The position numbers and the translations under genes are program-made. A stretch of 64,000 nucleotides of DNA from assembly GCF_037975245.1 (NCBI RefSeq), contig NC_092577.1, positions 10,387,513-10,451,512 on the forward strand. The letters are read 5' to 3'. The stretch's first letter is position 1. Each line of letters opens with the position of its first letter. Source of the stretch: Apostichopus japonicus (lineage: Eukaryota; Echinodermata; Holothuroidea; Aspidochirotida; Stichopodidae). The notes under the pieces were generated by a model. That model was not told the DNA's origin. It searched no databases and was given only the letters and a program-made list of their open reading frames with translations. Positions 1 to 64,000 of the stretch are shown one piece after another.

Positions 1-3000
1 CCTACAGTAATCAATATTTAGATTCTCTATAATTGTATACAAGTCCTATCAAGGTATATATGCAGAGATGTACAGTGAGTGTTAAGTAGGTAATATTAGT
101 GTTTGAGCCATTGCCTTAATTTTGGTACTATGAAAGTTCCCATATAATGGTCTAGATACATTCATTTGAATAAATTTTCAGGCCCATAAGAATCATTGAT
201 TGTTGCCTATTCTAAGTTTCCTACCAACATCATGACCCCCTCCCTACAGTAATCAAACTCTTGATTCCTTGCAATCGTATACAAGTCCTATAAGTATATA
301 TGCAGAGATATACAGTGAGTGTAAAGTAGGTATTATTATTGTTTGGATCAACGCCTTAATTTTGGTACTATGAAAGTTCCCATATAATGGTCTAGATACA
401 TTCATTTGAATAATTTTTCAGGCCCATAGGAATCATTGACTATTTCCTATCTTCAGTTGTCTACCCATATCCTGACCCCCCCCCCTGCAGTTATCATTCT
501 TTAGATTCACTGCAATTGTATACAAATGCAGAGATTATTGCCTAGATCCTCTATTCCCTACCCAGATCCTGACCCCCACCCCCTGCAGTAATCAATCTCT
601 AGATATATGTTTATAGCTCCATGATTTAATTGACCAGGGCTGTACAGGCCTACAGTAATAAATATTTAGATTATCTATAATTGTATACAAGTCCTATCAA
701 GGTATATATGCAGAGATGTACAGTGAGTGTTAAGTAGGTACTATTAGTGTTTGAGCCATTGTCTTAATTTTGGTACTATGAAAGTTCCCATATAATGGTC
801 TAGATACATTCATTTGAATAAATTTTCAGGCCCATAAGAATCATTGATTGTTGCCTATCCTAAGTTTCCTACCAAGATCATGACCCCCTCCCTACAGTAA
901 TCAAACTCTAGATTCCTTGCAATCGTATACAAGTCCTATAAGTGTATATGCAGAGATATACAGTGAGTGTAAAGTAGGTATTATTATTGTTTGGATCAAC
1001 GCCTTAATTTTGGTACTATGAAAGTTCCCATATAATGGTCTAGATACATTCATTTGAATAATTTTTCAGGCCCATAGGAATCATTGACTATTTCCTATCT
1101 TCAGTTTTCTACCTATTTCCTGACCCCCCCCCCCTGCAGTTATCATTCTTTAGATTCACTGCAATTGTATACAAATGCAGAGATTATTGCCTAGATCCTC
1201 TATTCCCTAGCCAGATCCTGACCCCCACCCCCTACAGTAATCAATCTCTAGCTATATGTTTATAGCTCCATGATTTAATTGACCAGGGCTGTACAGGCCT
1301 ACAGTAATCAATATTTAGATTCTCTATAATTGTATACAAGTCCTATCAAGGTATATATGCAGAGATGTACAGTGAGTGTTAAGTAGGTAATATTAGTGTT
1401 TGAGCCATTGCCTTAATTTTGGTACTATGAAAGTTCCCATATAATGGTCTAGATACATTCATTTGAATAATTTTTCAGGCCCATAGGAATCATTGACTAT
1501 TTCCTATCTTCAGTTTTCTACCCATATCCTGACCCCCCCCTGCAGTTATCATTCTTTAGATTCACTGCAATTGTATACAAATGCAGAGATTATTGCCTAG
1601 ATCCTCTATTCCCTACCCAGATCCTGACCCCCACCCCCTACAGTAATCAATCTCTAGCTATATGTTTATAGCTCCATGATTTAATTGACCAGGGCTGTAC
1701 AGGCCTACAGTAATCAATATTTAGATTCTCTATAATTGTATACAAGTCCTATCAAGGTATATATGCAGAGATGTACAGTGAGTGTTAAGTAGGTAATATT
1801 AGTGTTTGAGCCATTGCCTTAATTTTGGTACTATGAAAGTTCCCATATAATGGCTTAGATACATTCATTTGAATAAATTTTCAGGCCCATAAGAATCATT
1901 GATTGTTGCCTATCCTAAGTTTCCTACCAACATCATGACCCCCTCCCTACAGTAATCAAACTCTAGATTCCTTGCAATCGTATACAAGTCCTATAAGTAT
2001 ATATGCAGAGATATACAGTGAGTGTAAAGTAGGTATTATTGTTTGGATCAACGCCTTAATTTTGGTACTATGAAAGTTCCCATATAATGGTCTAGATACA
2101 TTCATTTGAATAATTTTTCAGGCCCATAAGAATCATTGATTGTTGCCTATCCTAAGTTTCCTACCAAGATCATGACCCCCTCCCTACAGTAATCAAACTC
2201 TAGATTCCTTGCAATCGTATACAAGTCCTATAAGTGTATATGCAGAGATATACAGTGAGTGTAAAGTAGGTATTATTATTGTTTGGATCAACGCCTTAAT
2301 TTTGGTACTATGAAAGTTCCCATATAATGGTCTAGATACATTCATTTGAATAATTTTTCAGGCCCATAGGAATCATTGACTATTTCCTATCTTCAGTTTT
2401 CTACCTATTTCCTGACCCCCCCCCCCCTGCAGTTATCATTCTTTAGATTCACTGCAATTGTATACAAATGCAGAGATTATTGCCTAGATCCTCTATTCCC
2501 TAGCCAGATCCTGACCCCCACCCCCTACAGTAATCAATCTCTAGCTATATGTTTATAGCTCCATGATTTAATTGACCAGGGCTGTACAGGCCTACAGTAA
2601 TCAATATTTAGATTCTCTATAATTGTATACAAGTCCTATCAAGGTATATATGCAGAGATGTACAGTGAGTGTTAAGTAGGTAATATTAGTGTTTGAGCCA
2701 TTGCCTTAATTTTGGTACTATGAAAGTTCCCATATAATGGTCTAGATACATTCATTTGAATAATTTTTCAGGCCCATAGGAATCATTGACTATATCCTAT
2801 CTTCAGTTTTCTACCCATATCCTGACCCCCCCCTGCAGTTATCATTCTTTAGATTCACTGCAATTGTATACAAATGCAGAGATTATTGCCTAGATCCTCT
2901 ATTCCCTACCCAGATCCTGACCCCCACCCCCTACAGTAATCAATCTCTAGCTATATGTTTATAGCTCCATGATTTAATTGACCAGGGCTGTACAGGCCTA

Positions 3001-3616
3001 CAGTAATCAATATTTAGATTCTCTATAATTGTATACAAGTCCTATCAAGGTATATATGCAGAGATGTACAGTGAGTGTTAAGTAGGTAATATTAGTGTTT
3101 GAGCCATTGCCTTAATTTTGGTACTATGAAAGTTCCCATATAATGGTCTAGATACATTCATTTGAATAAATTTTCAGGCCCATAAGAATCATTGATTGTT
3201 GCCTATCCTAAGTTTCCTACCAACATCATGACCCCCTCCCTACAGTAATCAAACTCTAGATTCCTTGCAATCGTATACAAGTCCTATAAGTATATATGCA
3301 GAGATATACAGTGAGTGTAAAGTAGGTATTATTGTTTGGATCAACGCCTTAATTTTGGTACTATGAAAGTTCCCATATAATGGTCTAGATACATTCATTT
3401 GAATAATTTTTCAGGCCCATAGGAATCATTGACTATTTCCTATCTTCAGTTGTCTACCCATATCCTGACCCCCCCCCTGCAGTTATCATTCTTTAGATTC
3501 ACTGCAATTGTATACAAATGCAGAGATTATTGCCTAGATCCTCTATTCCCTACCCAGATCCTGACCCCCACCCCCTACAGTAATCAATCTCTAGATATAT
3601 GTTTATAGCTCCATGA
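1..3616. repeat. Satellite array with a 648-bp higher-order unit
   Basis: Six head-to-tail units start at 1, 649, 1298, 1704, 2591 and 2997, each with the word CCTACAGTAAT. A full unit has four monomers, each opening with CCTRCAGT: A (1-242), B (243-483), C (484-591) and D (592-648). A and B are clearly paralogous (shared GTATACAAGTCCTAT, TGCAGAGAT and a nearly identical ~70-bp segment around GGTACTATGAAAGTTCCC); C and D are shorter relatives. Unit lengths are 648, 649, 406, 887, 406 and about 620 bp; the odd sizes are loss or gain of one ~240-bp monomer. The array runs off the left edge and ends near 3616 inside monomer D. No coding potential; a reading frame at 2376-2558 lies wholly inside it. 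Confidence 0.95.
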
Positions 3617-19204: not shown

Positions 19205-20125
19205 AAGAGTTAATCATACTGGTACTTCGAGTACAACAGCTGAGTACAGGTAGAATTCCCCTTGATATGAGTATTAATCATAATGGTACTTTGAGTACAA
19301 CAGCTGTGTACAAGTAGAATTCCCCTTGGTATGAGTATCAATCATACTGGTATTTTGAGTACACAACAGCTGAGTACAAGTAGAATTCACCTTGATATGA
19401 GTATTAATCATACTGGTACTTTGAGTACAACAGCTGAGTATACAAGTAGAATTCACCTTGATATGAGCATTAATCATACTGGTACTTTGAGTACAACAGC
19501 TGAGTATACAAGTAGAATTCACCTTGATATGAGTATTAATCATAATGGTACTTTGAGTACAACAGCTGTGTACAAGTAGAATTCCCCTTGGTATGAGTAT
19601 CAATCATACTGGTATTTTGAGTACAACAGCTGAGTACAAGTAGAATTCCCTAGATATAAGTATTAATCATACTGGTACTTTGAGTACAACAGCTGAGTAT
19701 ACAAGTAGAATTCACCTTGATATGAGTATTAATCATACTGGTACTTTGAGTACAACAGCTGAGTATACAAGTAGAATTCACCTTGATATGAGTATTAATC
19801 ATACTGGTACTTTGAGTACAACAGCTGAGTATACAAGTAGAATTCCCCTTGATATGAGTATTAATCATACTGGTACTTTGAGTACAACAGCTGAGTATAC
19901 AAGTAGAAACACCTTGATATGAGTATTAATCATACTGGTACTTTGAGTACAACAGCTGAGTATACAAGTAGAAACACCTTCATATGAGTATTAATCATAC
20001 TGGTACTTTGAGTACAACAGCTGAGTATACAAGTAGAATTCACCTTGATATGAGTATTAATCATACTGGTACTTTGAGTACACAACAGCTGAGTATACAA
20101 GTAGAATTCACCTTGGTAAGAGTAC
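19205..20125. repeat. 66-bp tandem array, about 14 units
   Basis: The word ACAACAGCTG recurs about 14 times, 64-68 bp apart. Each unit also holds AAGTAGAATTC, TTGATATGAGTATTAATCAT and ACTGGTACTTTGAGT. As 66 is a multiple of three, stop-free frames arise on both strands (for example 19274-19603 minus and 19331-19579 plus); these are not genes. Confidence 0.95.
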
Positions 20126-33040: not shown

Positions 33041-33062
33041 TATTTTCCATTATAGATAAAGA
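33041..33062 (+). promoter_or_regulatory. Probable 5'-UTR splice acceptor before the dioxygenase-like gene
   Basis: TATTTTCCATTATAG, followed by ATAAAGA and the ATG, looks like a pyrimidine-rich tract with AG. The transcript may therefore carry an upstream noncoding exon that I could not locate. Confidence 0.4.
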
Positions 33063-34346
33063 ATGTCTCGTCAACACACCTATGACAAAGCCACCTGGTC
33101 TGGAAGGACAATGCCAATATGGGAAAAATCATTCCCTGTTCTTGGCAAGGGTATGTTACTTTTTAACATCAAACGAGATAAACCATTCTACATCGCAGTT
33201 TGTAACAAGGAAGGGGATGGAATTGCTGAAACCACCATTATGTTAGCAGTAGGTAAAAATGGAGCGTCATTTTGCACACAGCAGGGCTCCATTGTCAGTA
33301 GCATGAACAACATTGGGTATGAGCCATCCAAGATTGTGACATACTGGTACAGTTACGATAGCGATAATATGACAGTAAAATATGGGAAAGGCTATTGTAT
33401 GGAGGAAACTACACTTTTAAAATACACTTTTACAGATGAAAGCGACAGAGCAAAATATTTTGACCCAGCAAAGAGACGAGTTGTTAAACTATTCAACTCC
33501 AATCCTTTGGAACCCCATCGGTCTTCTCTGAGGTCCACGAAGATTGAGAGGTCAACACTGGTAGATGTTGAGAAGGAGATAATGTTTAGCCCGTATCCTT
33601 TTATGTGTAATCGACCACCATTTGTTCGAGACAGTTCGTTGTCAAACCTGTTTGACATTGACCTGGGTAAATACACCTATTCAAGCAGCCTTCCTGAAGC
33701 CTGTCAAGATTTGTATGAAAATGTTAAGGGTATCAATATGAGTCTGGATTATGGGGAGAAAGAGTACAAGTTGACTGACGCAATTAGGCACAGCATCGAA
33801 GACGAAAACGGTCTACTTCATAAAACCTTGGAGAAAAAGAAGGATGAATTTGGTAGTGATGACCAAATTTATCTCCGCATCACCCTCGGTAAGAACTTCG
33901 GAAATTCGCCAGGTACCCCATATGTTTTAGAAATATGGCCAAAGAAATGCGGGAGCCCGATACATAACCATGGCAACTCATGCGCGGTGATTCGTGTTTT
34001 ACATGGAGGCTTAACTATTTCAATTTACAACAAAAACACAACCGATAAAAGTGCAAAGCCACTTAAGGAATTTGACGTCGTAAAAGATGATGTTACATGG
34101 ATTGCACCAAACTGGTACCAAACGCACAAGCTTTGGAACAAAACAGATGACTTCTGTGCGACTATTCAGTGTTATCAGTATGGAGATAAAGACGACATAC
34201 ATTGGCCATTCTTCGATTACCTCGATTCAAAATCTCATACAGTTGATGTATTTGCGCCAAATTCAGATTTCCCTTTCACTGAAATGTACAATATAGTGAT
34301 GAAAGAGTATGAAGAATCTATGGCAGGCAAGAAAACAAACATGTGA
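33063..34346 (+). CDS. Cysteine-dioxygenase-like cupin protein with long N-terminal extension
   Basis: One uninterrupted 427-codon exon, the best-supported host gene here. Residues about 260-390 resemble type I cysteine dioxygenase, a cytosolic non-haem iron enzyme oxidising cysteine to cysteine sulfinate. GSPIHNHG gives His301 and His303, and QTHKLWN gives His355; the 52-residue spacing of the second and third ligand equals that of the mammalian enzyme (His88/His140). HG at 314-315 matches the cupin turn. The position of the Cys that forms the Cys-Tyr cofactor in mammals is Ala308, with Cys307 one residue earlier; Tyr371 and Tyr373 flank the Tyr position. Arg272 may correspond to the substrate-binding Arg. 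Typical members are about 200 aa; residues 1-200 (KPFYIAVCNKEGDG, TYWYSYDSD, VKYGKGYCMEE) are an extension I cannot name. No signal peptide or membrane segment. Substrate unproven; another thiol dioxygenase role is possible. Confidence 0.8.
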   Translation: MSRQHTYDKATWSGRTMPIWEKSFPVLGKGMLLFNIKRDKPFYIAVCNKEGDGIAETTIMLAVGKNGASFCTQQGSIVSSMNNIGYEPSKIVTYWYSYDSDNMTVKYGKGYCMEETTLLKYTFTDESDRAKYFDPAKRRVVKLFNSNPLEPHRSSLRSTKIERSTLVDVEKEIMFSPYPFMCNRPPFVRDSSLSNLFDIDLGKYTYSSSLPEACQDLYENVKGINMSLDYGEKEYKLTDAIRHSIEDENGLLHKTLEKKKDEFGSDDQIYLRITLGKNFGNSPGTPYVLEIWPKKCGSPIHNHGNSCAVIRVLHGGLTISIYNKNTTDKSAKPLKEFDVVKDDVTWIAPNWYQTHKLWNKTDDFCATIQCYQYGDKDDIHWPFFDYLDSKSHTVDVFAPNSDFPFTEMYNIVMKEYEESMAGKKTNM

Positions 34347-39608: not shown

Positions 39609-40580
39609 GCAGATGGCATCAATTTCAGATAGTCAGGTTCTATTAGCGCCTCGCAAGAAGTGATGTGTACTGAACGCTTTCCGCTTCGGTAATATGGTGA
39701 ATTACCCAGTTGGAAAGTAAGGAATGGGGGGGGGGGGGGGTATAGAGAGAGACTCGAGGACACCGTTGAAAAGATGTACACTAAAAGTGCATTAAGAGTT
39801 TAAAAACTATAATTACATTTACAATGTACCTGTCGTACATCTTTCGTAAAGTAATAAACAAATAATATATACAGAAAATAATACAATACAAGGGTGGCGT
39901 ACATTAACTAGCCCTGTCAAGGGAATGCTAATCCCTAATATGTAAGCTGCCTAGCAGCGCAGCTAACTATAGGCGCTACGTCAAGGACAACGCAGCGCAG
40001 GCACAACGCAGCCCAACTATAGATCTGCGTCAAGGGCGACGCAGCGTAAGGACAACGCAGCGCAGCTAACGATGAGATTCGTCAGCCCGCGAACCCTACG
40101 CTGCGACGACCTTGCGCAAGCACAAGCAGTTATGCAGCGCAGCTGCAGAGTGCATACCTCGATCCTCTGCAGGAGCCATAAATAACCTTAGTCCCTATTT
40201 AAAACAACGTACAAATTCGGCATATATTCTGCCTAGCCACTTACACTAAATATACACCAAGTTAATGCATAAAAACGCTCCTTGCACGCCATTATAAACG
40301 ACCCCGTAACTTTGTAGAATCCTATACACGATTAACTGACCAATTAAGAAATAGCCAATGAGATTGACAAGCGCCATAACCCAATTACAGCCAGTTAACG
40401 CTCTCTACAGTGCTATACGTATGTGAGCTAACCCCGCCCAACTGTCTATGCACCCCAATAGTGCCCGTATACCAAGAACAAAGGCGGCCTTGTCCACCGG
40501 ATGTTTGCATAAAGCCCCGGCAGCAAGACCCAACTCTCGCAGCCAGCAATATACTGAAACTTAAATTACACAAACCAAGG
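39609..40580 (-). mobile_element. LTR-like copy related to the LTR at 54457-54830
   Basis: 39609-39965 matches 54457-54781 at high identity: TTTCAGATAGTCA, CGCTTTCCGCTTCGG, CTTTCGTAAAGTAATAAAC, GGGTGGCGTACATTAACTAG. That sequence flanks Gypsy pol remnants at 54 kb, so this is probably a solo LTR, minus orientation. Beyond 39965 the copies diverge; the rest to about 40580 may be U3 sequence missing from the other copy. The right boundary is a guess. Confidence 0.5.
39950..40145. repeat. GCAGCGCAG-rich short tandem repeat
   Basis: Two imperfect units of about 65 bp, each containing CTATAG, CGTCAAGG, ACGCAGCG and ending in GCAGCGCAG. GC-rich against the surrounding sequence and part of the LTR-like copy. 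Confidence 0.6.
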
Positions 40581-41849
40581 CAGTCGGTAATCTGACCTGG
40601 TGACCCTCATTATGTTCAAGATATGTGACGTCACGCTTTTTTAAATTTTAGCACTAAATTTGAAAAGAAGACAACAAAACTTTACAGTTGAATATCTCTG
40701 AAAGAAGTGGCATAACGATGATTTCACTCACACACACACAACAAAACAACATGATCAACCTTAAAGAAACTTTCGAAGAGAAATTACACACTTACGGCGG
40801 GTCACGACCAACGTGAACGAATCGAGCACTGTGTATCCAAGTTTCAAAACGTGAACACGTGGTTAAAAAAAAAAGGCCAAAATTGAACTTTCCGTGCGTG
40901 AACATACTCGATATCCGCACAAAAGAATCTTGAAATCCCAACACAGATTTAGGTACTTCTTATGGTTTAATCCGAGTTCTAATACGGACACTTACAGATG
41001 TTTTACGACGGCTATTGTCAGTACGAAACCCCAGGTCCATTCTTAAAACGAAAATGGCGGACAGCTTCATAAGGTCATGCATATTCCTTGTATAATAATG
41101 ACAACGTCATCAAATTACGCCTTTTCTGATGAATAGTCATGAAATATTAGATGACTAACAACCATTCTCGGTACTGAAAACACACGCAATTTCCACTGCT
41201 TATGATCCGGTGTGTTTCAGAATACATTTTTGACTTGCTTTGGTTAAGTTAAAACTGAGATTTGAACCATCTTTAAGTATGTGAAATATGAGAAAAGCAA
41301 AAAACCACTCGGATTATTTGTTTTGTACAATTTAGGGCATCAGGATTATTAATTTTAATTGTAAGGACAGGGAAATCAAAACATGCTAGCTGAGGTTGGG
41401 GACTATCCAGGAAAGGGATGGGGTGGAGGGGGTATGTGTGTGTTTGTTGGTCGGTGGGCGGGAGGGGGCATCGGTGATATGGAACAGATTGGAGGGGAAA
41501 GCTTATAGGCTGCCAACACAAAAATCTAACCCATTGGGGTGCTAATGGAATAAGAGGGGGGGGGGGGGGAGTTTGACATGGAAATAAACTCATCATTTAG
41601 AAGTACATCTTCATGTTAGACAAAGTGGTCTTTTTGAACAGTCAAATCCTGGTTTTGATTAGCTAAACCATACTTCTTGGTAGTCATCCTTAATGCATCG
41701 GTAGTAACATTCTGTGCGATCACCATTGTCCTACAGTACCAGTAACAAATAAAGACCAAATGAAGAAGAAAGATCAAGTGTCTCCAAGTCCTTACTTATC
41801 CTTGGAAGTTATCTTTATTATAAACTTCTTGGTACTTAACATGAAACAA
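40581..41849. other. Noncoding stretch with two regulatory-looking words
   Basis: TGACGTCA (40626-40633, CREB/ATF palindrome) and AAAATGGCGG (41051-41060, YY1-type) are spaced about 420 bp apart. G-runs at 41397-41475 and 41562-41570 are the only other compositional signal. The 107-codon minus frame at 41273-41596 reads through these G-runs (as proline) and is judged noncoding. Confidence 0.3.
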
Positions 41850-42752
41850 TGCTATATAAATTTCAACACAAATGTGTAGAGGAATGAATACAAAAATGAA
41901 AAGGTTATGTGTATAATATTAAAATGGCATAGAAGGTAATATATGACATTTATAATTGAACTGTACATGGAGGTACATGGAGGTAAGATGTGGTACATAG
42001 ACATTTCAACAAAAAAGGTGACAAGGCAAAATAAAATATGATACTTTAAAGAAGCTCACCATACACGAAGCATGTAGAGGTGGACAGTGTATACAAAGTG
42101 AAAGAACTATTAAGTATTAAAAGTATAGCAGAGATGATAGTTAAACCATTCACATCACATAATGAAATGTGCTTATCAGGCAGCAAAGATGGAAGTTTTC
42201 TTTTTTAAATAAATGACAGTAATGTGACCAGATGTATGAGTACAGTATGCTATGATTTTGCATCAATATAGCACAGGGCACTGAACAAGGTGGAATGAAA
42301 GATACCAAAAAAGTAATAATGCTTTAAAAATTTCAACAAAAATGTGTAGAGAAAGGCACACAAAAATGAAAAGGGTATTCATATAACATTAAAATGGCAT
42401 AGAAGGTAGTATATAGAGATATTTATAATTATACTGTATATGACCAAAAACAGCTGGTCTGTGTACATGGAGGTAAGATGCACATAGACATTTAAATAAA
42501 TGAGGAGACAAGGCAAAATAATATATGATAATTGAAAGAAGCCCACCATACATGAAGCATGTAGATTTAGACAGGTATATACAAATTGAAAGAACTTTTT
42601 AGTGTTGAACGAATAGCATTATAAAACAGAAAGAGATGATAGCTAAACCATTCACATCACAAAATGAAATGTGCTTATCAGGTAGCAAATATGGCAGTTT
42701 TCTTTTTTAAATAAATGACGGCTTATGTGACCAGATGTATGACTACAGTATG
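41850..42752. repeat. Tandem duplication of about 470 bp, second copy split by an element
   Basis: Unit 1 starts near 41851 (AAATTTCAACACAAATGTG) and unit 2 near 42321 (AAATTTCAACAAAAATGTG). Shared landmarks include TAAAATGGCATAGAAGGTA, CATGAAGCATGTAGA and TTCACATCACA. Unit 2 is interrupted at 42752 and resumes at 44523 with AATATAGCACAGGGCACTGA. Confidence 0.85.
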
Positions 42753-44522
42753 CAGGGTTCTGCCCAGGGTGGATTGAGTGCCGGCAGGACTATCTAAGCG
42801 GAGCGCCACCATCAGTTGGCGTGGAGCGTACAATAAAATTTTGGGTTTTGGAAACCCCCAAGATGGCCGGAAACGGCCCTTCCCGAGTATTCTGAGCCAC
42901 ATGTAGACAGCTTTGAAATGAGATCTCATGTCTGGAATTTTTCATAATTAATGAAAAAAAGTTAGGACAAATATCTGGAGCACCAGAGTACAGACCAGCC
43001 GGTGGTGCCTATTAAATAAATCATTCAGGCTGAGATGATAATTTTAGATGAACAGTGAGTGAGAGTCCACTCCCAAATAAATATTGTTTCCATGTTCTTG
43101 TAGAAAACGTAAACTCCGCAAAATACAATTAGTTGTGATTTTGTAGTTACGTGAGATCCGTTATAACCGCCGAGGTGGTTAGGCTATTTGCTATACACTT
43201 AACTATGGTAGGATATTATTTTTTCGGTATTTTTGGAAATGCTAGAAAATACTTTCTTTTCCCCCGGCTTAACACCAGATGTGGTCTTACGGTATATTCA
43301 TAAATGGATGCACTAGAGCCTAGTTTACATGACATTAGTTGCATTTAGTACGATATGCAAGTTTGGCGTGAATTTTTCGAAAGTGCTTTGCTCGATCTTT
43401 CGTAAAATTTGAAAGGTGTAGCCTACCACCTTTCCGTACACAATTGGTACACAATTGATTTTCAGTTTTTTTTTCTCTGTACGGTCAAGTGAATAAGTTG
43501 TACATTGAGTATAAACTCATGGCGAATGCAAAAAACGATGAGGGGATTTCCAGCAGACAAATGTTCTCTCTGCGGGATTACGGAGTCAGTTGAAGGGAAT
43601 CCCGCACCTTAGTGGGAACACTGAACTGAAGTCAAATTCATACGAAAGAAAACGTTTACTAACCAACATACAATACAAATATAAAAGAACGTGGAATGGC
43701 AATATTGTTCAAAACATTTCCCGCGAGGCTGATTTATTACAGCAACCTCCCCGCGCTGGGCCGTGGGTGTCCGTGTGACACGTATACCCTAAAGCTTGCG
43801 AAATAGCCATTGTAAGTGGGTTGGGGACACATCATTACTCGTTGGTAGTGTGACTAAAATTGCGAGCACGCTCTCTGAACATTTTCCTTTTGTTTCTGAA
43901 ACTTTTCTTGTGAAATTTTACTTTTTTTTTATTGATGTACTTATTTGTCCTTTGTGTTTTTTTTTTAGTTTTTCGTCCCGTTTTTTTATCTATTTTTTTT
44001 TTTTGTCCGATTTTTTTTTTCGCCAGCCGGGCTGGATTTCCCGCGAGCATCGCGGATTTCCCGCGAACCTGGTTCGGACTGTTCGCAAGGTTTTCCAGCC
44101 CTTGTCACTCGTGCCTAATGCAATATGATGTAAATTCACCCGCTACGAAGGTTAACGGCCGTATGTGTACTAGCTAGCTGGATAGTGCCTGTGTCTCGCG
44201 CGATAAAAATAGATATAAATGAAACTGTCAAAAGTACGATCGGGAGTTGGAAACGGAAAACAGTCATTGGTCTGGAATGCGGAACTCTAGTATTTTTTAC
44301 TAAGTATGACACTGTGATGTGTTGGATATTTTGAACAGTTATGAACTGGATTTCCCCTAGTCTCAAACAGATTGTTGCTGTACGTTCGACCCTCCGGCTA
44401 TGGAGCTGTTTTTTTGAGTTCCTATCGAAAATAAGTGCCGGTCGGAAAAGTCACTCAGGCAGATTGTGGCGGTCGGTAATTCAGCGTGCTGGTCGGGCCC
44501 GACCGGCAGCGGCAGAACCCTG
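42753..44522 (+). mobile_element. 1.77-kb TIR element inserted in a tandem repeat unit
   Basis: CAGGGTTCTGCC (42753-42764) is exactly inverted as GGCAGAACCCTG (44511-44522). AGTATG immediately precedes and follows (extendable to AGTATGCA). The intact copy of the host repeat at 42240-42300 reads GTACAGTATGCTATGATTTT without interruption, showing the empty site. The interior starts with the hAT-like core (42790-42895, GCGGAGCGCCACCATCAG), then noncoding DNA with long T tracts (43920-44025) and GCCGGTCGG words near the right end. Frames inside (43590-44560) are short and unrecognised. Probably nonautonomous. Confidence 0.85.
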
Positions 44523-45887
44523 AGTATGCAATGATTTTGAATCAATATAGCACAGGGCACTGAACAAGGTGAAATGAAAGATAAAAAAGTAACTTAGAGA
44601 TGGAGAAAAGAATATATCAAAAATGTACATGTAGAAAAGATGTGACTAAAAATAAAAGTGATGTAAATGTTGAAAGCATCTACAGAATGCAGACATAGCA
44701 ATACAGACACAGCAATCAATGAGCTAGTCACAACACATTACAAACGTATATACTAAGGGGCAGCACATGAAAGGACAGTCTTTAACAGTTTATGTGGTAC
44801 GGAGTGAAAGACGGCATGTAGTGTTGTCACAAGATCAGCTGATATATGAAATATAAATAAAATAGATCATGAGATGTAAAGGTTATGTTGTAATGCCACA
44901 ATGCACAACTACTGGCGATAACATTTATTCATTTTTGCTATGTTTCCCTCTATTTTTTCCCCTCTAATTTTGTCATGTTTCCCTCTAATGCACTAATATT
45001 AAGATAAGTAATAAAATTGGTCTAAAAACACCAGAATGTCCTGAACTTCACAAAGTGGTGAAAGGTGAAATTAGAACCATCCCAAAAGCCCCTTCCCAAG
45101 AAGGGCCACCTCTCACAAATAATGCACCTAAATATCCACTTAGTTCCTCACTCCCCCCCCCCATCACCCACCAACTGAACCCCATAGCTCAACCACCCCT
45201 CTCCCTCCTCCACCCCAAAAACCAAATAAATAAGAACTTGAATGAGTAGAAACAAATTTTGACCACACTATACTTTTGTCTAGAATAGGACTTGTGTTTT
45301 GACATCCAACATGCAAACCAATTCACTATAAATCACTACAGTATTGCAGTATTGAAGGATTAAGGCAGCTAAAGATGTCCAGTTTGTGTATATTTTCATC
45401 CACAAAGCAATTACTCATCATTCATAGTGCAAGTACATCATTCATAGTGCAAGACTTTTTTGACAAAAAAAAAACCTACCACGCATATCATCATAAGTAA
45501 ACAAAGGAACCTCACTACTATTGCTTGACAGTTTAAAAGTTTCTCTTCTTATCTAAAGTTTACTGACAAAGCTTCACAACACATTCTGGATTGAAAGTCA
45601 AGTCTGATCTTTTATTGCACGTGTTGAACAAAACTTGATGGTGACAGTAGTTTTGAAGATAATTTTTTGCATAATTTCTCATGTAATCAACAGTGGTAAG
45701 CACTCACTTTATTTGGCAAACTCACTGTTTAAAGGGGCATAAGTACCTAACAGTAAAAGGAAATAATAATCTTGGATGTCAAAACCCAAACCTGTAACTT
45801 TCCACTATGACTGCTGTGAAGGCACCTGAGAATGAGAAAAACAGTAAACAGTTGATAGACCAGTTCATGTAGAGGCAAAGTTATATA
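44523..45887. other. End of the split repeat unit, then noncoding
   Basis: 44523-44600 is the remainder of repeat unit 2. Beyond it no gene is recognised; the 64-codon frame at 45055-45249 is proline-rich from C-runs and looks like chance. Confidence 0.45.
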
Positions 45888-46450
45888 CTAATGTCATCAA
45901 AATACTCAGTTTCAGTTGCAGCAGCTGCAACTAATTTGCAAAAGTCATCAATATCAAACAATTCAGTTTCATTTTCTTCATCTTGTAATTCATTACCAGA
46001 TAAAAAAGTCTGCACCTGAAGAGTCAGAGCCAGAGTCACTGTCAGACTGTTCTTGATGACTAGCAAGATGTGCTGGATTAGAGGACTCTGGTGAAATTTC
46101 CACGGTATCAACATTTGACAGGGGTTTATTCTCACAACTCTGACGCTGACAAAATATGAAACAGATTTTACCATCTTTCCTACATTTACACCAATTACTG
46201 GTGCAGCCTTTCTTCCATTTGCAACCTTCCTTCAGGTGCTGAATGTTGCGGTTAACTTTCTCCAAGTTTACTTCGGTATCCCACACAACACTAACTTTGT
46301 CATTTGCAACAGTCCAACCATGGGAAGTCAATTCCGGAACTGTTACATTCGAGGAGCATGCCTGAGCCCATACAGTAAGAACCCAGCAACATCTCTGCCA
46401 ATGCAACCGGAGTTCATCTGTAGAAGGCATCCACTCCGACTCTCCAGAAA
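45888..46450 (-). pseudogene. C-terminal HW..CWV block and CXC (tesmin-like) tail
   Basis: MPSTDELRLHWQRCCWVL and WTVANDKVSVVWDTEVN precede KEGCKWKKGCTSNWCKCRK, a CXC/CRC-type metal- and DNA-binding motif in which one expected Cys (GCKC) is Trp. An acidic Ser/Asp/Glu-rich end follows: DSDSGSDSSGAD in one frame, continuing in another to about 45888. Confidence 0.55.
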
Positions 46451-46628
46451 TTATATGGAAGTGTCCATTTCTAATAGACTCAAGAAAGGTTGTGTGATTC
46501 TCAAGGTTATTTTTTTATGTTAACCAGAGGGATAAAAGAAGTTCACGTGGACTCTCAGCCTCAAAGGCACTGCAGTGCTTTCTGAAATAGACTGAACCTA
46601 TTAAACGATGGAAGGCTAGAAGATGAAC

Positions 46629-47318
46629 TCAGTCCCTGAAGAAAACATCCAAAAAACCCTTTTTAGAGTGACCTTTAAAGAAAGAAGTAAAATCACAGCC
46701 GCTAGCCACATACAAAGTCTGGAAGAAAGTAGGGATGTGGTCAATGAGACTTGGTCCAACCTTCTGAAGGAAGACATCACATGTTAGTAAATTAATAAGA
46801 ACTTTCATATGTTTAAACAAATTGTCATTCTTAGCAGCTCTCAACTGCACATACACCTGCTTTGAAGTAAAAGAAGAAATAAGCGGTAGTCCCACATGGA
46901 AGGTGTCTCGATCAGGGAGTAAATAACTACTTGTTCACAACTGGTTTTTCCTGTGTGGAACCAAACCCTAGAGTCACCTTCTTCATGATTGGAGGTCAAC
47001 TCACTGACTACAGATATAGTAGGGTTGTTCTTTTAAACAGATAATGCTTGATCTGTGTTGTCTCCATAGAAACCACCAGCAGTTATCAAAATAATAGGTG
47101 CTGTATCAGCCTGTTTAGTAATATGTAGGAGCTCCATAGGTAAAAAATTCAATAATAACCTCTTCGAACACAAAGAAATTTTCTCCAATCAGAAGGACAG
47201 AGTGTCTCGGGAAGTATTTCAGTGTACAGTGCCTCCTCAACAGTGCCTTCCAGGGTGATCGAACACAATATGTACTTCACAAGCATTAAATTCCCTCATT
47301 GCTTTAACAACTCAACGT
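46629..47318 (-). pseudogene. FEN1/XPG-like nuclease core of the large gene
   Basis: Acidic motifs in family order: VHIVFDHPGRH, EEGDSRVWFHTG, SPDRDTFHVGLPL and LYVASGCDFTSFFKGHSKK. In FEN1/EXO1 enzymes the corresponding residues bind two metal ions that cut flap or bubble DNA. The Asp residues are kept, but a one-base shift near 46915 separates the second and third motif, and stops occur upstream. Assignment rests on motif wording and order only. Confidence 0.45.
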
Positions 47319-48106
47319 CTATACAAAAAAGGCATACTCTCTGAACGTTTTGTGTATTTTTAAGGGGGGACAATTGACCATGAACATACCTTCAATTATA
47401 CATGATGTTTTTGTCTGGGAAGATGCAGGGCATAATTTTGAACAGAAGGCATCTGGGTACCTCTTTTGCAACTCTGATGCAGATTTTGACTTACAGGCTT
47501 TGAAGGGTGATCCATCTGGACAACAAATGGCACGTGGAAGGGAAACAAATTGATATAGACACTCAACAGGCTGATTTGATGCCTTTGATAGAGCAACCTG
47601 TCTCCTAAGAGACAATATCTGTAACTTTTGATCTTTAATTTCATAAGATTGCTTCTGAATAGATTTTTTCTTGACAGTGAATGTCTTCAAATTTCGCCTG
47701 GATCGTTTAGGCGGCTTTGTGCCTGAAGTGTTCAAAATAACACAACGAATAAATGCAACAATTTCTTCCTTCCCTTTGTCATAAAAAGTCTGCAGATCCT
47801 GCGACACAACTTCTGATGAAACCTCACCAGTGAAAATATGATGTATGCGATCAGGTTGCGGATCCTCATTAAAAAGCAGACCAGCATCTGTCAACTTACC
47901 AAAGTACTGCACGACATTCGTCTCATGTGATTGAACAATGAAAGAGTAAGCCTTTCCTTAGACCTTTTAGATTTGTCAGTGCACTGAATTTCACTTTTCA
48001 ATTTTTTTAGTACTCTAGCCCTATATGGTAGGTAATGAAGAAGACGGGACATGCTTCCCATGCCAGCTGTTGTCATGTCCATTTTAAACTCCTTATTAAT
48101 TAGCAT
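47319..48106 (-). pseudogene. Segment between the middle region and the nuclease core
   Basis: DEAHEMLINKEFKMDMTTAG with LLHYLPYRARVLKKLK (48160-47990), then after another frame change FTGEVSSEVVSQDLQTFYDKG, AFIRCVILNTSG and a basic KPPKRSRRNLKTFTVKKKS patch (about 47720-47660) with CPDGSPFKACKSKSASEL. The basic patch could be a nuclear localisation signal. Confidence 0.45.
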
Positions 48107-48126
48107 TTCGTGTGCTTCATCAAAAG

Positions 48127-49689
48127 CTACAGAACATCCATCATTACCAGAAATACTGTAAGCAAATGCACCTTTTTTTTCAAATTAGAAAGAATATCTG
48201 GTGGAAACTGCTTCAGTTCTGTCATGTGAAAAGGGACCAATATGAGGCATATTGGTCTGTCCATTGCATGAATAATGGGAGCAAACTTTCTGATTGAAGC
48301 AGTACACAAATTGAATTGCCACAGCCTTATTGCCATGAACAGACTAGCATAGTGTTGCATGTCTCTATGTATGATATAGTGCCAAAACTGGGAAGTGGCA
48401 TCTGCTGTACTTATAGTTTCAAAATATGGGAGAAATTTCTCCTGAAAAGATGAAAACATGTTTGTAAGTTCATCAATGTTATGAAAAACGTTACTACCAT
48501 TCACACAGATCTGTTCCTTTACAGAACTATAAAGTGACTGGTAAATGTTTACATCAGCTTCTTGAGATGTTATGGCTTGATTTGTAGCAAATGTTGCAAT
48601 TTGTTGCCTATAAAAGGCTTCCCATGACTGCATTAAGAATATATGAGTTTTCCTGAATCCAGATGCTGAAGCAACAGCAGCATGCGTAGCTCCACGATGG
48701 AACATACTCAGTAGGTTTCTCAAGCCTGCGTCATTATACAATTTCATTAATGGTGCTTGTATGCTTTTCAGAAGATACCACTCCCCAAGGCATGGTAACA
48801 ACCAATTTAAATCATCACCATACATTCGTTTCGAATTATGCATGTACTCATATGTTTTAGCATCCCCTGCGACAACTAGATGTTGAATATTTTTACCAAC
48901 TCCATGCTTATCATGCAAAATATCTATAGCATGTCTCATTGTTTCTGCATTATCTGCAGGTTCTCCTAAAATGCATGTGTAATGGACAGATGACTGTTCT
49001 GTTTCACTGGGTGTCATGTGTGTCAAAGCTGTTTTGAAATCAGGAAGAACACAAGTGAGCCCCTCATTGTGACATACATACTTTGTGAAAATATAACAAA
49101 AACCTTGTGTCTTTATGTTGGTAAGTGCATTGTTCTTATCATCTGAGAGTGAAAACGAGTCAATGTTAATGGATACATCTGAAATAAGAGGATGGAAGCG
49201 TGTCGGAACTCCTGATGGATATGAAGACTGAACCTCATGATACTGGTTAAGGGTAATAGAGTCAATCTGCTGTGAAGTAAAAGGCACACAATAGTTTGAA
49301 GCAGGAGTCACTTCTCTAAGTGTCTCTGTGGAAGATGGCAAGGGTTGCACAGCCTGAATGGATGTGCCATGAAATCTCCTGTCCAGCTGACCAGCAGATA
49401 CAGCAACATAACTTGCACTTCTGTCAATGTTATCAATTGTTGCCATTGCAAAGCCACGAGAAAGTAGGGATGGCTTATCAGTCATTTCTTGGGCTGCAAT
49501 TTGTGTCTGGAATCGTTGGTATGTGGATTTGCTGACAGTAATACCAAAGGAAGAAAGATAATGAAAGCATGTTGATGATGATGAACTGAACCTGTCAACC
49601 ACGTCTGAGATAGCTAGATGATTGGGTGAAAAGCAGTTATCGTTAAGTGTATTTAACATGTTAGCACAAATAAAATAACGCTTCAGCAT
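48127..49689 (-). CDS. Longest intact frame of the large gene, 520 codons
   Basis: Starts at MLKRYFICANMLN; the first ATG is unlikely to be the true start because homology-like sequence continues upstream. Contains VVDRFSSSSSTCFHYL, FAMATIDNIDR, IQHLVVAGDAKTYEYM, WLLPCLGEWYLLKSI and LWQFNLCTASI, blocks I associate with the same uncharacterised multi-copy family. No transmembrane segments. The frame ends in a spurious tail after an A8 tract near 48175; the alternative frame continues as SGNDGCSVAFDEAHEM, so the true protein runs on. Function of this middle part is unknown. Confidence 0.6.
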   Translation of the reverse strand: MLKRYFICANMLNTLNDNCFSPNHLAISDVVDRFSSSSSTCFHYLSSFGITVSKSTYQRFQTQIAAQEMTDKPSLLSRGFAMATIDNIDRSASYVAVSAGQLDRRFHGTSIQAVQPLPSSTETLREVTPASNYCVPFTSQQIDSITLNQYHEVQSSYPSGVPTRFHPLISDVSINIDSFSLSDDKNNALTNIKTQGFCYIFTKYVCHNEGLTCVLPDFKTALTHMTPSETEQSSVHYTCILGEPADNAETMRHAIDILHDKHGVGKNIQHLVVAGDAKTYEYMHNSKRMYGDDLNWLLPCLGEWYLLKSIQAPLMKLYNDAGLRNLLSMFHRGATHAAVASASGFRKTHIFLMQSWEAFYRQQIATFATNQAITSQEADVNIYQSLYSSVKEQICVNGSNVFHNIDELTNMFSSFQEKFLPYFETISTADATSQFWHYIIHRDMQHYASLFMAIRLWQFNLCTASIRKFAPIIHAMDRPICLILVPFHMTELKQFPPDILSNLKKKVHLLTVFLVMMDVL

Positions 49690-49935
49690 CTTCTTACGAT
49701 GTACTGCTGATGATACATGAAGCTGTTGAAGAAAATGTGTATGCCAACTGAAGTCACCACAAGACAGCAGTTGCTTCTTCTCAACATCATTTAGTGTGCT
49801 GTGGTAAATAAAATTCCATAGGAAAGGGGTAATGTGAGTATTTCAGCTTCAATGTTGATTTGATCTATCGCAGAATATTTGACTGCTTGGTCTTGTATGG
49901 TCTTGGTTGTAGGAATCATTTGCTCTGAGAGTGTG

Positions 49936-50310
49936 TTACAAAAGTACTCCGAGCTGAGAACATTTGCTGGATCTTGGTTTTGCTTTCTGAGTAAATCTAC
50001 CTACAGTATGAGATCTGCCTTTTTTCGTGAAAAATTGAAAAGAGATGTATGTAAGTATATCAGTCCCACATCGCCGGATGAGTGTACCAAGCGTACGCTG
50101 TTCACTGATGTGAGAAGCAATAAAATAATCATCTATAACAGACTTAGCTCGGGCGAAGAACTGCATTTTGTTTTTCTTACTTGGCAAGTCTTGATTGCTA
50201 TTTTCAACCCATACTGATAAGCAATTGTTATAACTTTTGGAATAAAAATCATTGACTGTTTCAAGCAAAAGTGCTTCATCCTCTAATAACTCTCTACCTA
50301 AAAATAGCAA
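49936..50310 (-). pseudogene. Second segment of the large gene
   Basis: A 124-codon frame (ARAKSVIDDYF, GTLIRRCGTDILTYISFQFF) continuing the same order after a frame change near 50340. The reading continues to about 49700 (FLWNFIYHSTL, then VHRKKMLKRYF), where it joins the next long frame. Confidence 0.5.
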
Positions 50311-50375
50311 AGACTGGGCAAAGGCATAAACCTCACACTTATCAGCACTCTCAAGTGTGGTCGTTCAAAAGGGGT

Positions 50376-51029
50376 CTAACAGCTCAGAGAGATATTCCTT
50401 TGAATTTTAAAACTCTCCAAATACTCTGAGCTAATGGCATACCTTGAAACTGCCTGATAACAGGTGTTACACTGTAAACTATCTCTTTCAAAAGTGACAT
50501 CTGTCTTAGGGGAATGTTTAATATAAGCAGTAACAACACAAGGTTCTCTGTATGAACGCATTGCTGAACTTGTCGAAAGACATATGGAACGATCCTTAAA
50601 GATGATTTTGTTTGTTAGAATACAGTAATGAGCATGGCAAAGAAAAATTCCTGACCTGTTACAGCATAGCTCAATAGCAGTGGCATCATCAATGTCAAAA
50701 AATTTGATTAGAGTGCTACGGTTAACACATTTTGATGTCTGATGCACATTTTCTTGACTAGTGCAATTTGGTAACTGACATGTATTTGACGAAGGCCTTT
50801 TAGAGGGAGGCCTAGTTTCATCTTTGACTGAGCTTAGTCTAAGTTTACATGCAAAGCAAACACAGTCATAGTCCAAAATATTTTCTGCCTTAGCACTATA
50901 ACCAACTGAGAATTAGCAGGAGTGGCTTGAGCTATGTGCCAGTAATCGTGGCTTGGACTCTTTACAAACAGTACATGGTCCAGCAACTTTCTCTATATGG
51001 TATAACTGACAAGCTGTTTTCTTTGGCAT
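50376..51029 (-). pseudogene. N-terminal part of the large gene
   Basis: MPKKTACQLYHIEKVAGPC begins at 51029. CTVCKES, then (after an in-frame TAA near 50915) CVCFACKL, CQLPNC, CNRSGIFLCHAHYC and CNTC provide many Cys/His pairs, so a zinc-binding segment is likely. The stretch before the TAA reads like a splice acceptor (CTAATTCTCAG), but no matching donor is evident. Frame closes at 50376. Confidence 0.5.
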
Positions 51030-52172
51030 GATGTCGTGAAAGTTTAAAAAAAAATTAGAAAAAAAATTAGAAAATTAGAAACTTATATGGTACACATAAG
51101 CACGTACTCATTGTAGTCGGGGTGCAAATTGTTATCTTCCTATTTCCTAAACATACAATTAAATTAAATACACTGAGTAATCAAAACTTTGGACTCGTAA
51201 GCAGCAATCTCTGCTTACTGACATTGAAATTTCTAAGCTACAAGTACAAGCAGAATGTAGGCCAATGTTGTACCCACATCCCAAGATCCCAAGGCTGCAT
51301 GTGTCTCAAAAGGTTCAAGATCATTCCCAAAAAATGAAACCCTGCTTTGTATTGAAATGTTGGTTAGTCGGCATCTGCTACAACTAGTGGGCAAAACTGC
51401 AGCTAGGAAACAGGATCCTGTTTCTACATAACTATTAGGAATAAATAAATATGAAGATAGGCATAGCCTTGTAAATGCCAGGATAGCCTACTAACTTTAG
51501 CCAAGAATTAAAACACCACTCCACCCATGGCTTAAGTAATGTATTGCCTAAAAGTGACACTCCAGTCAACAGATACAAACAGACTTAGGCCATAGCCTTA
51601 CTTTATATCTAAGCTTTACGCCGTGCCCTGCTTTGCACTAATACTACTAGAGCCAAGACCAACGAGGCCATAAAGTTGAAGTTATTAAAATATGAAGATT
51701 TGGGCCTAGCCTAAATAGTACATGACTAGCCTATATAGGCCGGTTGGCTAGGCCTATACTAACTTAGGAATACAGAACCCTAATACTAATAGTAGTATCA
51801 TATATAAATTTAAGAGCGATTAGGAAACAATATAAAATTTGTCACAACGAATTTAAAGAATTTACCGTGTGGCGAAGCCCTACCTACGTTGCTAACAACT
51901 ATGTCCAAGGCTTTAGTATGATAGTAGTTAGTACTGTAGACAAGTTATAGTAACTAAAAGTATGTAGGCCTGTACTATTACTAGGTATATGAAGCCTATG
52001 TGTTAGGCGACATTACAGTGCAACAACAACGTAAAGCTTTGACCTAAATTTTTGTACACTTTTTACGGGTGAACAAAATCCAAACGTATTGCCAACATTT
52101 TGAAACCAACATTATGATATCCTACATTCTAATACGGAAACCTTACAGATCCGAAAAGTCAGAGTTACTTAC
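51030..52172. other. Presumed upstream region or intron of the large gene
   Basis: No coding signal. Rich in AGGCCTA-type words (51700-51760 and 51960-52000). It may be the intron between a first exon at 52173 and the main body. Confidence 0.35.
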
Positions 52173-52215
52173 CTGCAAATTCTCCTTGCCGTTCCACAAG
52201 GGCAGAGAAATTCAT
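52173..52215 (-). CDS. Candidate first coding exon upstream of the large gene
   Basis: ATG at 52215 reads MNFSALVERQGEFA plus one base, ending at a consensus donor TTTGCAG|GTAAGTAAC. The phase fits an acceptor AAAACAG|CTTGTC inside the N-terminus of the large gene (about 51013), joining GCA G|CT as Ala-Ala. If real, the large gene is spliced and has a normal promoter. Only the donor and phase support this. Confidence 0.3.
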
Positions 52216-52394
52216 TGATTGAAGCTAGATGAGAACGAGTTCAACCGAATTCTAACAAAGATGTGTCTTTGCACTATATAAGGATACTCTAATACCATAT
52301 ATGGCAATTCTCGGTGATCAAGATCATGCATAATTCATGTTTTAACGTGCGCTTCGGTATTGGAAACGACTCGGCTTATTTTCGCGCCATCTCC

Positions 52395-52420
52395 GATTTG
52401 CCACTTCCGGTTTGTTCATC
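52395..52420 (-). promoter_or_regulatory. ETS-type site in candidate promoter
   Basis: CCACTTCCGGTTTG (52401-52414) contains the ETS core ACTTCCGG, with GCGCCAT nearby. It lies 190 bp upstream of the candidate first exon in a CpG-containing patch. Confidence 0.3.
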
Positions 52421-52533
52421 GGATTCGTGAAAGTTGCGCAATAACGGTCGTTTTCGGCGAGGAGAGTTTCCACTGAAGGACCTCCCAGCTTAAACATTAA
52501 AGTAAGAAACATTTTATAACGGTAAAACATGCA

Positions 52534-61392: not shown

Positions 61393-63807
61393 TTAAAGCA
61401 GACGGGACGAGGAACGCAACGGTCTAGAGGGAGTGTAAAGAGAAATTAAATCACAAAGGTACTGCGGTGCAATATTGTAAATACATTTAAAAGTGAGTAA
61501 TAAAATCTTATAAGATATTCTTTCTCTAACTGGAAGCCAATGCAAGTTATGTAGGACGGGTTTTATATGATCATATTTGGAAGTACCCGTTACAAGTCTG
61601 GCAGCAGCATTTTGGATTTTCTGAAGTTTATCTATGAGATGTGAAGGTAAGTTACAGTATAATGAATTGCAGTAATCTATGTATGACGTAACAAATGCAT
61701 GAACAAGTGATTTACATGAGGTATCATCCAAGTAACTACGAATATGCCAAAGCTTATGAATACTAAAATTTGCTTTTCTACACACATTTGCAACATGTAA
61801 GTCAAGTGAAAGACTTTTATCAAAAATAATACCCAAATTGCGAACCTTATCAACTGTATGAATTGTTGCCGCCCCCACTTGAAAAGAAAAATCAGGAAGT
61901 TTAGCCAATTGTTGCTTTGAACCTATGACTATCAATTCAGTTTTTGTATCATTTAGTTTAAGATTATTCGTTAAAAACCAGCGACGTGCTTCAGCCACAC
62001 AATTTTCCATTGTAGAAATTGCCTCACCTCTGGCAGTGTCATTGCCAGCATTAAAAGCAAGATAAAATTGATTGTCATCAGCATAACCCTCACAGTTAGG
62101 AAGGTGCTTAAGCAAAACATGATACAATTGGGATAAGTATGTAATAAAAAGTATGGGGCCAGTACAGCTTCCCTGGGGAACACCGTGCTTCAAAAAGAAG
62201 TCTTTAGAAAATGTACCATTTACAAGAACTTTTTGACGCCTATTACATAAATAACTTTGAAACCACTGAAACACCAGGCCTTTGATATTTATACGATTAC
62301 CCAGAGTATTGAAAAGAGTATCATAATGAACGGTATCAAAGGCTGCAGACAAATCAAGCATAATGAGAAGAGTTACCATTCCAGCGTCCATGTTTTTCAT
62401 GATATCGGAATGTACCCTAAGCAAAGTGGTCTCAGTACTGTGATGCTTCCGATAGGCAGAGTTGTTTACTGGCAGGAGATTATTTTTTAATAAATGACAC
62501 TCAAATTGATCCATAACAGCGCTTTCCACCAGTTTGGACAGGTAAGCCAAATTACTCACGGGTCGATAATTCTTAAATTCAAGTGAAAGTCCTTGTTTCT
62601 TTAAAATGGGAATGACAACAGCACACCTCCAACACTCGGGGAAAACTCCATTTTCCATAGACAAATTGATGATTTTTGTTATCACAGGTAGTAAAATATC
62701 AATACATTCTTTAACAATTTTAGATGGAACAGGATCAAGTATGCAATGTTTATTTGCAGACTTATTAATCAGCTTAAGAACCTCCTCAGATGATAACTTG
62801 GTAAAGTGTGAAAAATCTGGGATTACTTCACGTGAATCAACTCTGACTAAATCAGACGGCAACAGATTTTCCTTTGTACAAGTGTCGCGAATATCTGAAG
62901 TAATTCGGTCAACTTTTTGCTGGAAGTAATCGCCGAAACCATTAGCCAGACTCTTGTTGTCAATGCTTGGAGGAAACAGACTGGAATCATTTTTAGCAAT
63001 TAATTTGTTGATGAGGCAAAGTAGCTTTCTTTGGTCACCACCACAATCCTGTATTTTACTGGTGTAATATTCCTTCTTCACACTCTCACATGCATTGGTG
63101 AATTGGTTTCTCGCTTTTTTGAAAGAAATGTAATCATCATGAGAACGTGAATTTAGCCACCTTTTCTCAAGTTGGCGACGATGTCTCCTAAGAACGTTTA
63201 GAGATGATGTAAACCAGGGTCTTGAGGGCTTAACTGTGATGAGTTTTGTTCTAACAGGTGCGTGTTTATCCAGAAGTGAGATTAGCGTACCGTTGTAACA
63301 ATCAATAAGTGACTGTAAATCATTTTGATTGTCATTGTGTAAAGCAGAGTTAACCAGGTCCTCTTTGAATTTATCCATGTTAATACTGTTTATGCACCTA
63401 AACTTGATCAATTTGCGTTCAAAATCAACAGGAATTAGTTTGACATTCGCGTGTATGAAGCAATGGTCAGAGATGAAATGGTCAGCATGGACTGTGGCCA
63501 CATCAAGGCTGCCATCTTTCAGATAGTCATAAGCAGTGGGATTAAGTCGCTGAACCGGAGAAACGGAACAATAGGTGTTTAGCCGAAAAAGTTCTTTAGC
63601 TGTGTACTGTATAATGGTAGAGTAGTTACTATGACAACACATAGTGCTAGGGTAACAATTTTCAAAAACAGCAGATAACGATAAAAGCATGCAAGACAGC
63701 AAATTCAGCATAATCTGGACAGTTCCGCGAGACACAGAATCCGATAGAAAAAGATGTCTCCAAAAATATATGCAAAAACAAAACAAAATGTCAAACGAGA
63801 CAACCAC
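61393..63807 (-). CDS. LINE ORF2-like protein with reverse transcriptase, 804 codons
   Basis: Uninterrupted frame. Reverse-transcriptase blocks in order: LDPVPSKIVKECIDILLP; FKNYRPVSNLAYLSKLVE (about residue 412); TLLIMLDLSAAFDTVHYD; FFLKHGVPQGSCTGPILF; the catalytic GYADDNQFYL (YADD at about 575-578); RWFLTNNLKLNDTKTELIV; then the C-terminal VTSYIDYCNSLYCNLP and LHWLPVRERISYKILLL typical of L2/CR1 elements. N-terminal to this, DYLKDGSLDVATVHADHFI and SDHCF are only the last motif of the APE endonuclease; the first 85 residues (LLSCMLLSLSAVFENCYP, NYSTIIQYTAKELFRLN) look like the start of such proteins. Hence the endonuclease core appears deleted in frame. The product could have polymerase activity but probably not target nicking. 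Confidence 0.85.
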   Translation of the reverse strand: MVVSFDILFCFCIYFWRHLFLSDSVSRGTVQIMLNLLSCMLLSLSAVFENCYPSTMCCHSNYSTIIQYTAKELFRLNTYCSVSPVQRLNPTAYDYLKDGSLDVATVHADHFISDHCFIHANVKLIPVDFERKLIKFRCINSINMDKFKEDLVNSALHNDNQNDLQSLIDCYNGTLISLLDKHAPVRTKLITVKPSRPWFTSSLNVLRRHRRQLEKRWLNSRSHDDYISFKKARNQFTNACESVKKEYYTSKIQDCGGDQRKLLCLINKLIAKNDSSLFPPSIDNKSLANGFGDYFQQKVDRITSDIRDTCTKENLLPSDLVRVDSREVIPDFSHFTKLSSEEVLKLINKSANKHCILDPVPSKIVKECIDILLPVITKIINLSMENGVFPECWRCAVVIPILKKQGLSLEFKNYRPVSNLAYLSKLVESAVMDQFECHLLKNNLLPVNNSAYRKHHSTETTLLRVHSDIMKNMDAGMVTLLIMLDLSAAFDTVHYDTLFNTLGNRINIKGLVFQWFQSYLCNRRQKVLVNGTFSKDFFLKHGVPQGSCTGPILFITYLSQLYHVLLKHLPNCEGYADDNQFYLAFNAGNDTARGEAISTMENCVAEARRWFLTNNLKLNDTKTELIVIGSKQQLAKLPDFSFQVGAATIHTVDKVRNLGIIFDKSLSLDLHVANVCRKANFSIHKLWHIRSYLDDTSCKSLVHAFVTSYIDYCNSLYCNLPSHLIDKLQKIQNAAARLVTGTSKYDHIKPVLHNLHWLPVRERISYKILLLTFKCIYNIAPQYLCDLISLYTPSRPLRSSSRLL

Positions 63808-64000
63808 AGGTAAATCAGTAATATAAAGTTATCCACAGCTTAAAAGTTTGATTAAAATTCGAATCGTAAAAGAGACAAAATGGAGCAAAATCATAGAGCA
63901 AAAGTAGGATGCAGCCTCACACGGCGCAACGTTGCTCATCCAATACAAATTGTATAATTACACTACTAGTAACAGAACTTTGCTATTGGCAGCATAAATT
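63808..64000. other. Upstream of the LINE frame, to the window edge
   Basis: Possibly LINE 5' UTR or flank. No further coding seen. Confidence 0.35.

Follow-up and report, generated by a model that had tools for sequence, protein, structure and literature searches.

The genome of the sea cucumber Apostichopus japonicus holds, within a 64,000-nucleotide stretch of contig NC_092577.1 (positions 10,387,513 to 10,451,512 of assembly GCF_037975245.1; hereafter the window), a broken coding region on the minus strand. A sequence-only reading had taken it for a damaged copy of an undescribed-looking gene that joins a flap nuclease to a tesmin-like CXC tail. Comparison with other copies in the same genome presents this region (45881..51029) as the single gene of a decayed DNA transposon copy with the features of AcademX, a lineage of the Academ superfamily, a name taken from the published description and held here at a probability of roughly 0.85. 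The start codon lies at 51029 and the stop codon at 45881-45883. The limits proposed earlier, 45888..51029, ran from this start codon to a few bases short of the stop and left some 5.3 kb of the element outside at the low end and 1.4 kb at the high end.

The whole transposon copy spans 40581..52475 (11,895 bp with its nested insertion counted; the gene is on the minus strand), limits that were set by homology to copies on contigs C20, C19, C13, and C1. When 30-kb stretches around these copies were compared with 32 kb of the window, homology set in at 40581 and ended at 52474-52476, and side-by-side reading found the flanks to be unrelated outside the element. The letters AAGG stand immediately outside the left boundary (40577..40580) and again at the right (52476..52479), forming a target-site duplication, without strand, whose limits are the points at which homology to the four other copies stops.

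The element ends read CAGTCGGTAA... on the left and ...GTTTCCACTG on the right. The left terminus (40581..40600, plus strand) starts identically in all five copies, and the right terminus (52456..52475, minus strand), whose reverse complement begins CAGTGGAAAC..., is the same in four of the five and altered in the copy on C1. In that copy (L014, L028), the altered right end runs straight into sequence that looks like the left terminus of such an element. The two ends form only short and imperfect inverted repeats (CAGTCGGTAA-TCT versus CAGT-GGAAACTCT), within which CAGT is exact. An inverted-repeat search for long terminal repeats in the window alone gave a best score of 34, compared with scores of up to 36 for shuffled sequence.

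The genome searched comprises 671.6 Mb in 35 contigs, among which the window lies on C17. A 1-kb probe from the middle of the element matched at least 14 stretches at no fewer than 12 loci, a copy number that is a lower bound, as it comes from internal probes. Five copies, the one in the window included, matched the whole probe at 95-100%, and the four other near-full copies, each on another contig (C20, C19, C13, C1), showed 95-96% identity over it. Exact 4-bp duplications flank three of the five copies (window, AAGG; C19, AGAA; C13, AGAC), the C20 copy is flanked by TGTA and TCTA (three of four letters matching), and the C1 copy lacks a duplication. Elements of this first family measure 10.8-12.6 kb with nested inserts included. 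The mobility that had been suggested from the letters of the window is thus upheld by multiple copies, defined ends, and target duplications.

Two of these copies, L012 on C19 and L013 on C13, each retain an uninterrupted frame of 1822 codons from stop to stop. In L012 this frame comprises 1755 codons from a Met that corresponds to window position 51029. Because the gene is one uninterrupted frame in L012 and L013, it is intronless there, and the earlier suggestion that the gene lacks introns agrees with a locus that is multi-copy and unspliced in this genome. L012 and L013 agree at 99.78% of 11,079 aligned columns, and their coding regions are one base apart; this near-identity indicates that the element moved recently. 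The remaining two copies are damaged, with three frameshifting indels and no stop in C20, and ten frameshifting indels and two stops in C1.

Measured against L012, the window coding region is itself heavily damaged. Over 45888-51029, 5138 bases align with a difference of 4.18%, and they include 14 indels, 13 of which shift the frame, as well as five stops, so that the frame was correctly judged to be broken. The window copy is no longer able to encode the transposon protein. The motif series that first drew attention does lie on the minus strand in the order claimed, spread over several frames, and it is beyond chance because the alignment with L012 is both long and close. One motif, SPDRDTFHVG, had been read as continuous; it occupies a single frame in L012, but in the window copy its S sits in the preceding frame. 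Searches of Pfam and the Protein Data Bank (PDB) with the broken pieces from the window gave nothing beyond a CXC match under the threshold and rows at the level of chance.

From the amino end, the minus-strand product of the window copy begins with the paired-cysteine motifs PCTVC, CVCFAC, CQLPNC, LCHAHYC, and CNTCYQ (50454..50978). These are followed by a likely DDE transposase core (48107..49437) with the motifs IDNID (49423-49437), VAGDAKTY (48850-48873), and VAFDEAHE (48107-48130). The nuclease motifs (46683..47399) come next: IIEG (47388-47399), VFDHPGR (47246-47266), HEEGDSR (46967-46990), PDRDTFHVG (46890-46916), and SGCDFTS (46683-46703), with the FEN1/EXO1/XPG fold taken from the corresponding region of L012. 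A tesmin/TSO1-like CXC cysteine cluster (46128..46226), in which seven of the nine L012 cysteines remain, completes the series. All of these features are on the minus strand.

A FEN1/EXO1/XPG fold was found for the nuclease region of L012 by both model and profile, and the structure model is confident, so that the FEN1/EXO1-type core proposed earlier is now a well-supported prediction for the transposon protein. With catalytic acids assigned by motif order, the key acids D102, E212, D214, D235, D237, and D308 are invariant in all eight nuclease regions aligned from the genome, and the catalytic acidic residues are retained in the window copy, as had been noted. The first nuclease acid is Glu in five of the eight regions and Asp in three, and other motif letters vary between families (HEEGDSR, HEESDSR, HEEADTR).

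When the nuclease model was searched against BFVD, viral XRN- and FEN-type proteins of the same fold topped the list. A PHROGs search gave no match, and NCBIfam gave none for L012 and one sub-threshold match for L032, a more divergent locus. In a viral contig collection queried with two window proteins, five and seven stretches matched a pattern, none of them encoding a relative. Two viral stretches that matched a motif pattern were set aside as chance-matched phage structural genes, a judgment made from their frames alone without a family search.

The middle of the protein had been left unnamed, and it is most likely a DDE transposase. Pfam family PF20231 (DUF6589) matches this region in relatives, above the cut-off of 27 in L030 (54.2 bits) and L031 (49.0) and below it in L012 (25.2), L033 (15.5), and L032 (12.9); it was unlisted for the 851-residue frame of L018 and for those pieces of the window that were scanned. 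An alignment was made of seven middle regions, L018 without its last part, and the DN-D, D, and E columns are invariant in five long proteins (IDNID, VAGDAKTY, and VAFDEAHE in L012); counted from the Met of L012, these acids are D536 and D539, D726, and E977.

The model of the L012 transposase region is weak (pLDDT 61.1, pTM 0.63), and a Foldseek search with it returned nothing significant (best E 0.78). Among 443 chains compared by VIA-align, the top five rows were all DDE-type transposases, namely those of the P element (7.7 and 7.6), Hermes (6.3 and 5.6), and ISCth4 (5.4), and the next row was a dynein at 4.6. The transposase matches stop at model residue 585 or 586, and residue 585 is the invariant Glu. 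The weak model and the conserved motifs together make it likely that the middle region adopts the RNase-H fold of a DDE transposase, which suggests that DUF6589 is part of a transposase.

The cysteine-rich ends of the protein are putative DNA-binding parts. The tesmin-like tail described earlier holds as to its cysteine spacing, with nine cysteines in CXC-like arrangement in L012 and seven columns invariant in all five long proteins, but the Pfam TCR (CXC) match stays below its cut-off of 23.5. It is listed for four of the five long proteins and unlisted for L030; scores were 18.1 for L012, 17.2 for L018, 17.9 for L019, 16.5 for L031, and 12.5 for L032. The N-terminal paired-cysteine motifs are possibly zinc binding, judging from their letters. 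Models for KDZ transposases and CxC domains exist in Pfam. A KDZ transposase was considered because of the cysteine clusters; neither KDZ nor CxC families were listed for any of the five proteins in a Pfam scan with E up to 1.

More divergent relatives are numerous. With E up to 0.001, the C-terminal 609 residues matched at least 94 stretches in the genome and the middle 567 residues at least 79, both counts being lower bounds that often include several stretches per locus. As far as the sequence taken around them reaches, five more divergent loci, L030-L034, carry frames of 1770, 1737, 1509, 1519, and 1164 residues. The long alignment comprises five proteins (L012 and L030-L033), leaving out L034, which is incomplete, and L018 and L019, whose frames are split; for L015, L016, L020, and L021 the comparison was at the DNA level, outside the protein alignments, and L017 was read but left unaligned. 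L012 is 21-44% identical to L030-L033.

One of these relatives defines a second family, in which the L032 element occurs in three copies (C8, C18, C19; L032, L035-L040) whose compared flanking parts are 99.9-100% identical. Its length is about 8.4 kb from coordinates. It has other ends than the first family, and the order of conserved regions is the same. When the ends are set at a symmetrical TAGAC, one base inside the homology edge, all three copies have 3-bp duplications (GGA, ACA, GTA). All three duplications end in A, and what speaks against a 2-bp duplication plus an A belonging to the element is only the symmetry of the ends and the A found as third right-hand base in three of three copies. 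The second family was apparently active very recently.

In the six pairings of four nuclease regions, the difference at fourfold sites is 0.59-0.70 and 37-50% of residues are unlike. Crude ratios of nonsynonymous to synonymous change (dN/dS) against the intact copy are 0.47 in the window copy, 0.31 in the copy on C1, and 0.80 in that on C20, the last from 43 changes only. Because of these ratios, and because the key acids are invariant despite the diverged fourfold sites, the data fit source copies that are under constraint and offspring that decay.

The nuclease of Academ elements is reportedly of the XPG type, as Kapitonov and Jurka in 2010 and Kojima in 2020 are said to have described. The literature search found no paper pairing Academ with XPG and none mentioning DUF6589. 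Published sources list Academ as a DDD/E superfamily (PMC9587614) and among the DNA transposons of Repbase (PMC4455052), describe it as expanded in bivalves, where curated elements have a mean length of 5565 bp (PMC10294476), and record it in three teleosts out of the four that were compared (PMC4746887). AcademH elements are described as carrying a helicase and leaving duplications of 9 or 10 bp, and those of AcademX as carrying a nuclease and leaving duplications of 3 or 4 bp (PMC10045372). We favor AcademX for the window element because it combines a nuclease with duplications of 3-4 bp. What had looked undescribed therefore fits a kind already catalogued (PMC10045372).

The element might instead unite a DDE transposase with a flap nuclease and yet lie outside Academ, perhaps as a relative of CMC/Chapaev or Sola, or in a superfamily that is uncatalogued. 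The AcademX assignment is one by description, and the nearest Pfam family is the unnamed DUF6589, on which the literature searched is silent. Duplications of 3-4 bp are also not unique to Academ. Against this, AcademX is described by just such a pairing of a nuclease and duplications of 3 or 4 bp (PMC10045372), and we regard a non-Academ origin as unlikely.

Far less probable is a host gene, or a domesticated transposon gene, that was multiplied by duplication or retroposition. A long conserved reading frame, and nuclease acids that are invariant while fourfold sites differ between families to the extent given above, would suit such a gene. However, the same element ends recur on different contigs between unrelated flanks with exact 4-bp duplications in three of five copies, and the shared sequence extends kilobases past the coding region; the host-gene and retrocopy readings were rejected on the element ends and target duplications. 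Least probable of all, and likewise rejected, is a selfish nuclease gene that has no transposase and spreads through its flap or homing nuclease activity, a reading near the one first suggested: its nuclease fold is well supported, but the same gene has a transposase-like domain in which D, D, and E are invariant, and its defined ends carry target duplications, so that it is better read as belonging to a cut-and-paste transposon.

A tentative scheme can be drawn for how the element moves. Both cysteine-rich parts, the N-terminal pairs and the CXC tail, may attach to DNA, either at the ends of the element or elsewhere, and the DDE domain would excise the element and join it to a target with a stagger of 3-4 bp. 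The nuclease fused to it could then trim 5' flaps or overhangs at the element ends or at integration gaps, a task that would fall to host enzymes in cut-and-paste elements without such a domain. It is conceivable, though we would not bet on it, that one 1755-residue protein uniting a DDE transposase (with DUF6589 as its core), a flap or 5'-end nuclease, and a CXC DNA-binding tail carries out excision, integration, and end repair without host FEN1. The window copy would be mobilized, if at all, by protein from other copies.

An apparently orphan nuclease/CXC gene is thereby placed as the gene of a kind of transposon that has been mobile recently in this genome, since near-identical copies carry duplications of their own. 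The analysis adds a confident structure model of the nuclease and ties the unnamed DUF6589 to a likely transposase core, and with intact copies in the genome, what the fused nuclease does is open to direct test.

Other features of the window, all without strand unless indicated, complete the description. Within the element, direct repeats spaced by about 470-500 bp occupy 41833..42719 and also appear as overlapping matches against other copies. A nested DNA insertion (42753..44522) has 12-bp inverted ends CAGGGTTCTGCC and is flanked by a 6-bp duplication, AGTATG (42747-42752 and 44523-44528); it is read as a later arrival because it is unaligned in all four other copies compared. Outside the element, tandem arrays with periods of 237-240 and 406 bp lie at 1-3517, and a 66-bp array of 14 copies with 93% matches lies at 19210-20124. 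An open frame of 428 residues (33060-34346, plus strand) has no Pfam match at E up to 0.01, and one of 811 residues (61393-63828, minus strand) has a reverse transcriptase domain (PF00078, E 9.5e-26) and is probably from a long interspersed nuclear element (LINE).

Among known systems, the middle region resembles the P-element and Hermes (hAT) transposases by a structural match of the weak L012 model, and in sequence it is matched by PF20231 (DUF6589), a family of unknown function. Target duplications of the P element and Hermes are 8 bp, in contrast to the 3-4 bp found here, and those transposases are not known to have a flap-nuclease domain. The FEN1/EXO1/XPG and XRN nucleases share about 9-14% identity with the transposon nuclease region, which differs from them in sharing a protein with a likely transposase and, in the family of the window transposon, in having Glu instead of Asp as its first acid. 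AcademX, by its published description, shares the DDD/E transposase (likely here), the nuclease, and the 3 or 4 bp duplications. That the elements described here (8.4 kb and 10.8-12.6 kb) are longer than the mean of 5565 bp given for curated bivalve Academ elements (PMC10294476) is a minor difference. No helicase family was listed for any of the five proteins in the Pfam scan. AcademH, a member of the same superfamily, is set apart by its helicase and its 9 or 10 bp duplications (PMC10045372), compared with the 3-4 bp of the elements in this genome.
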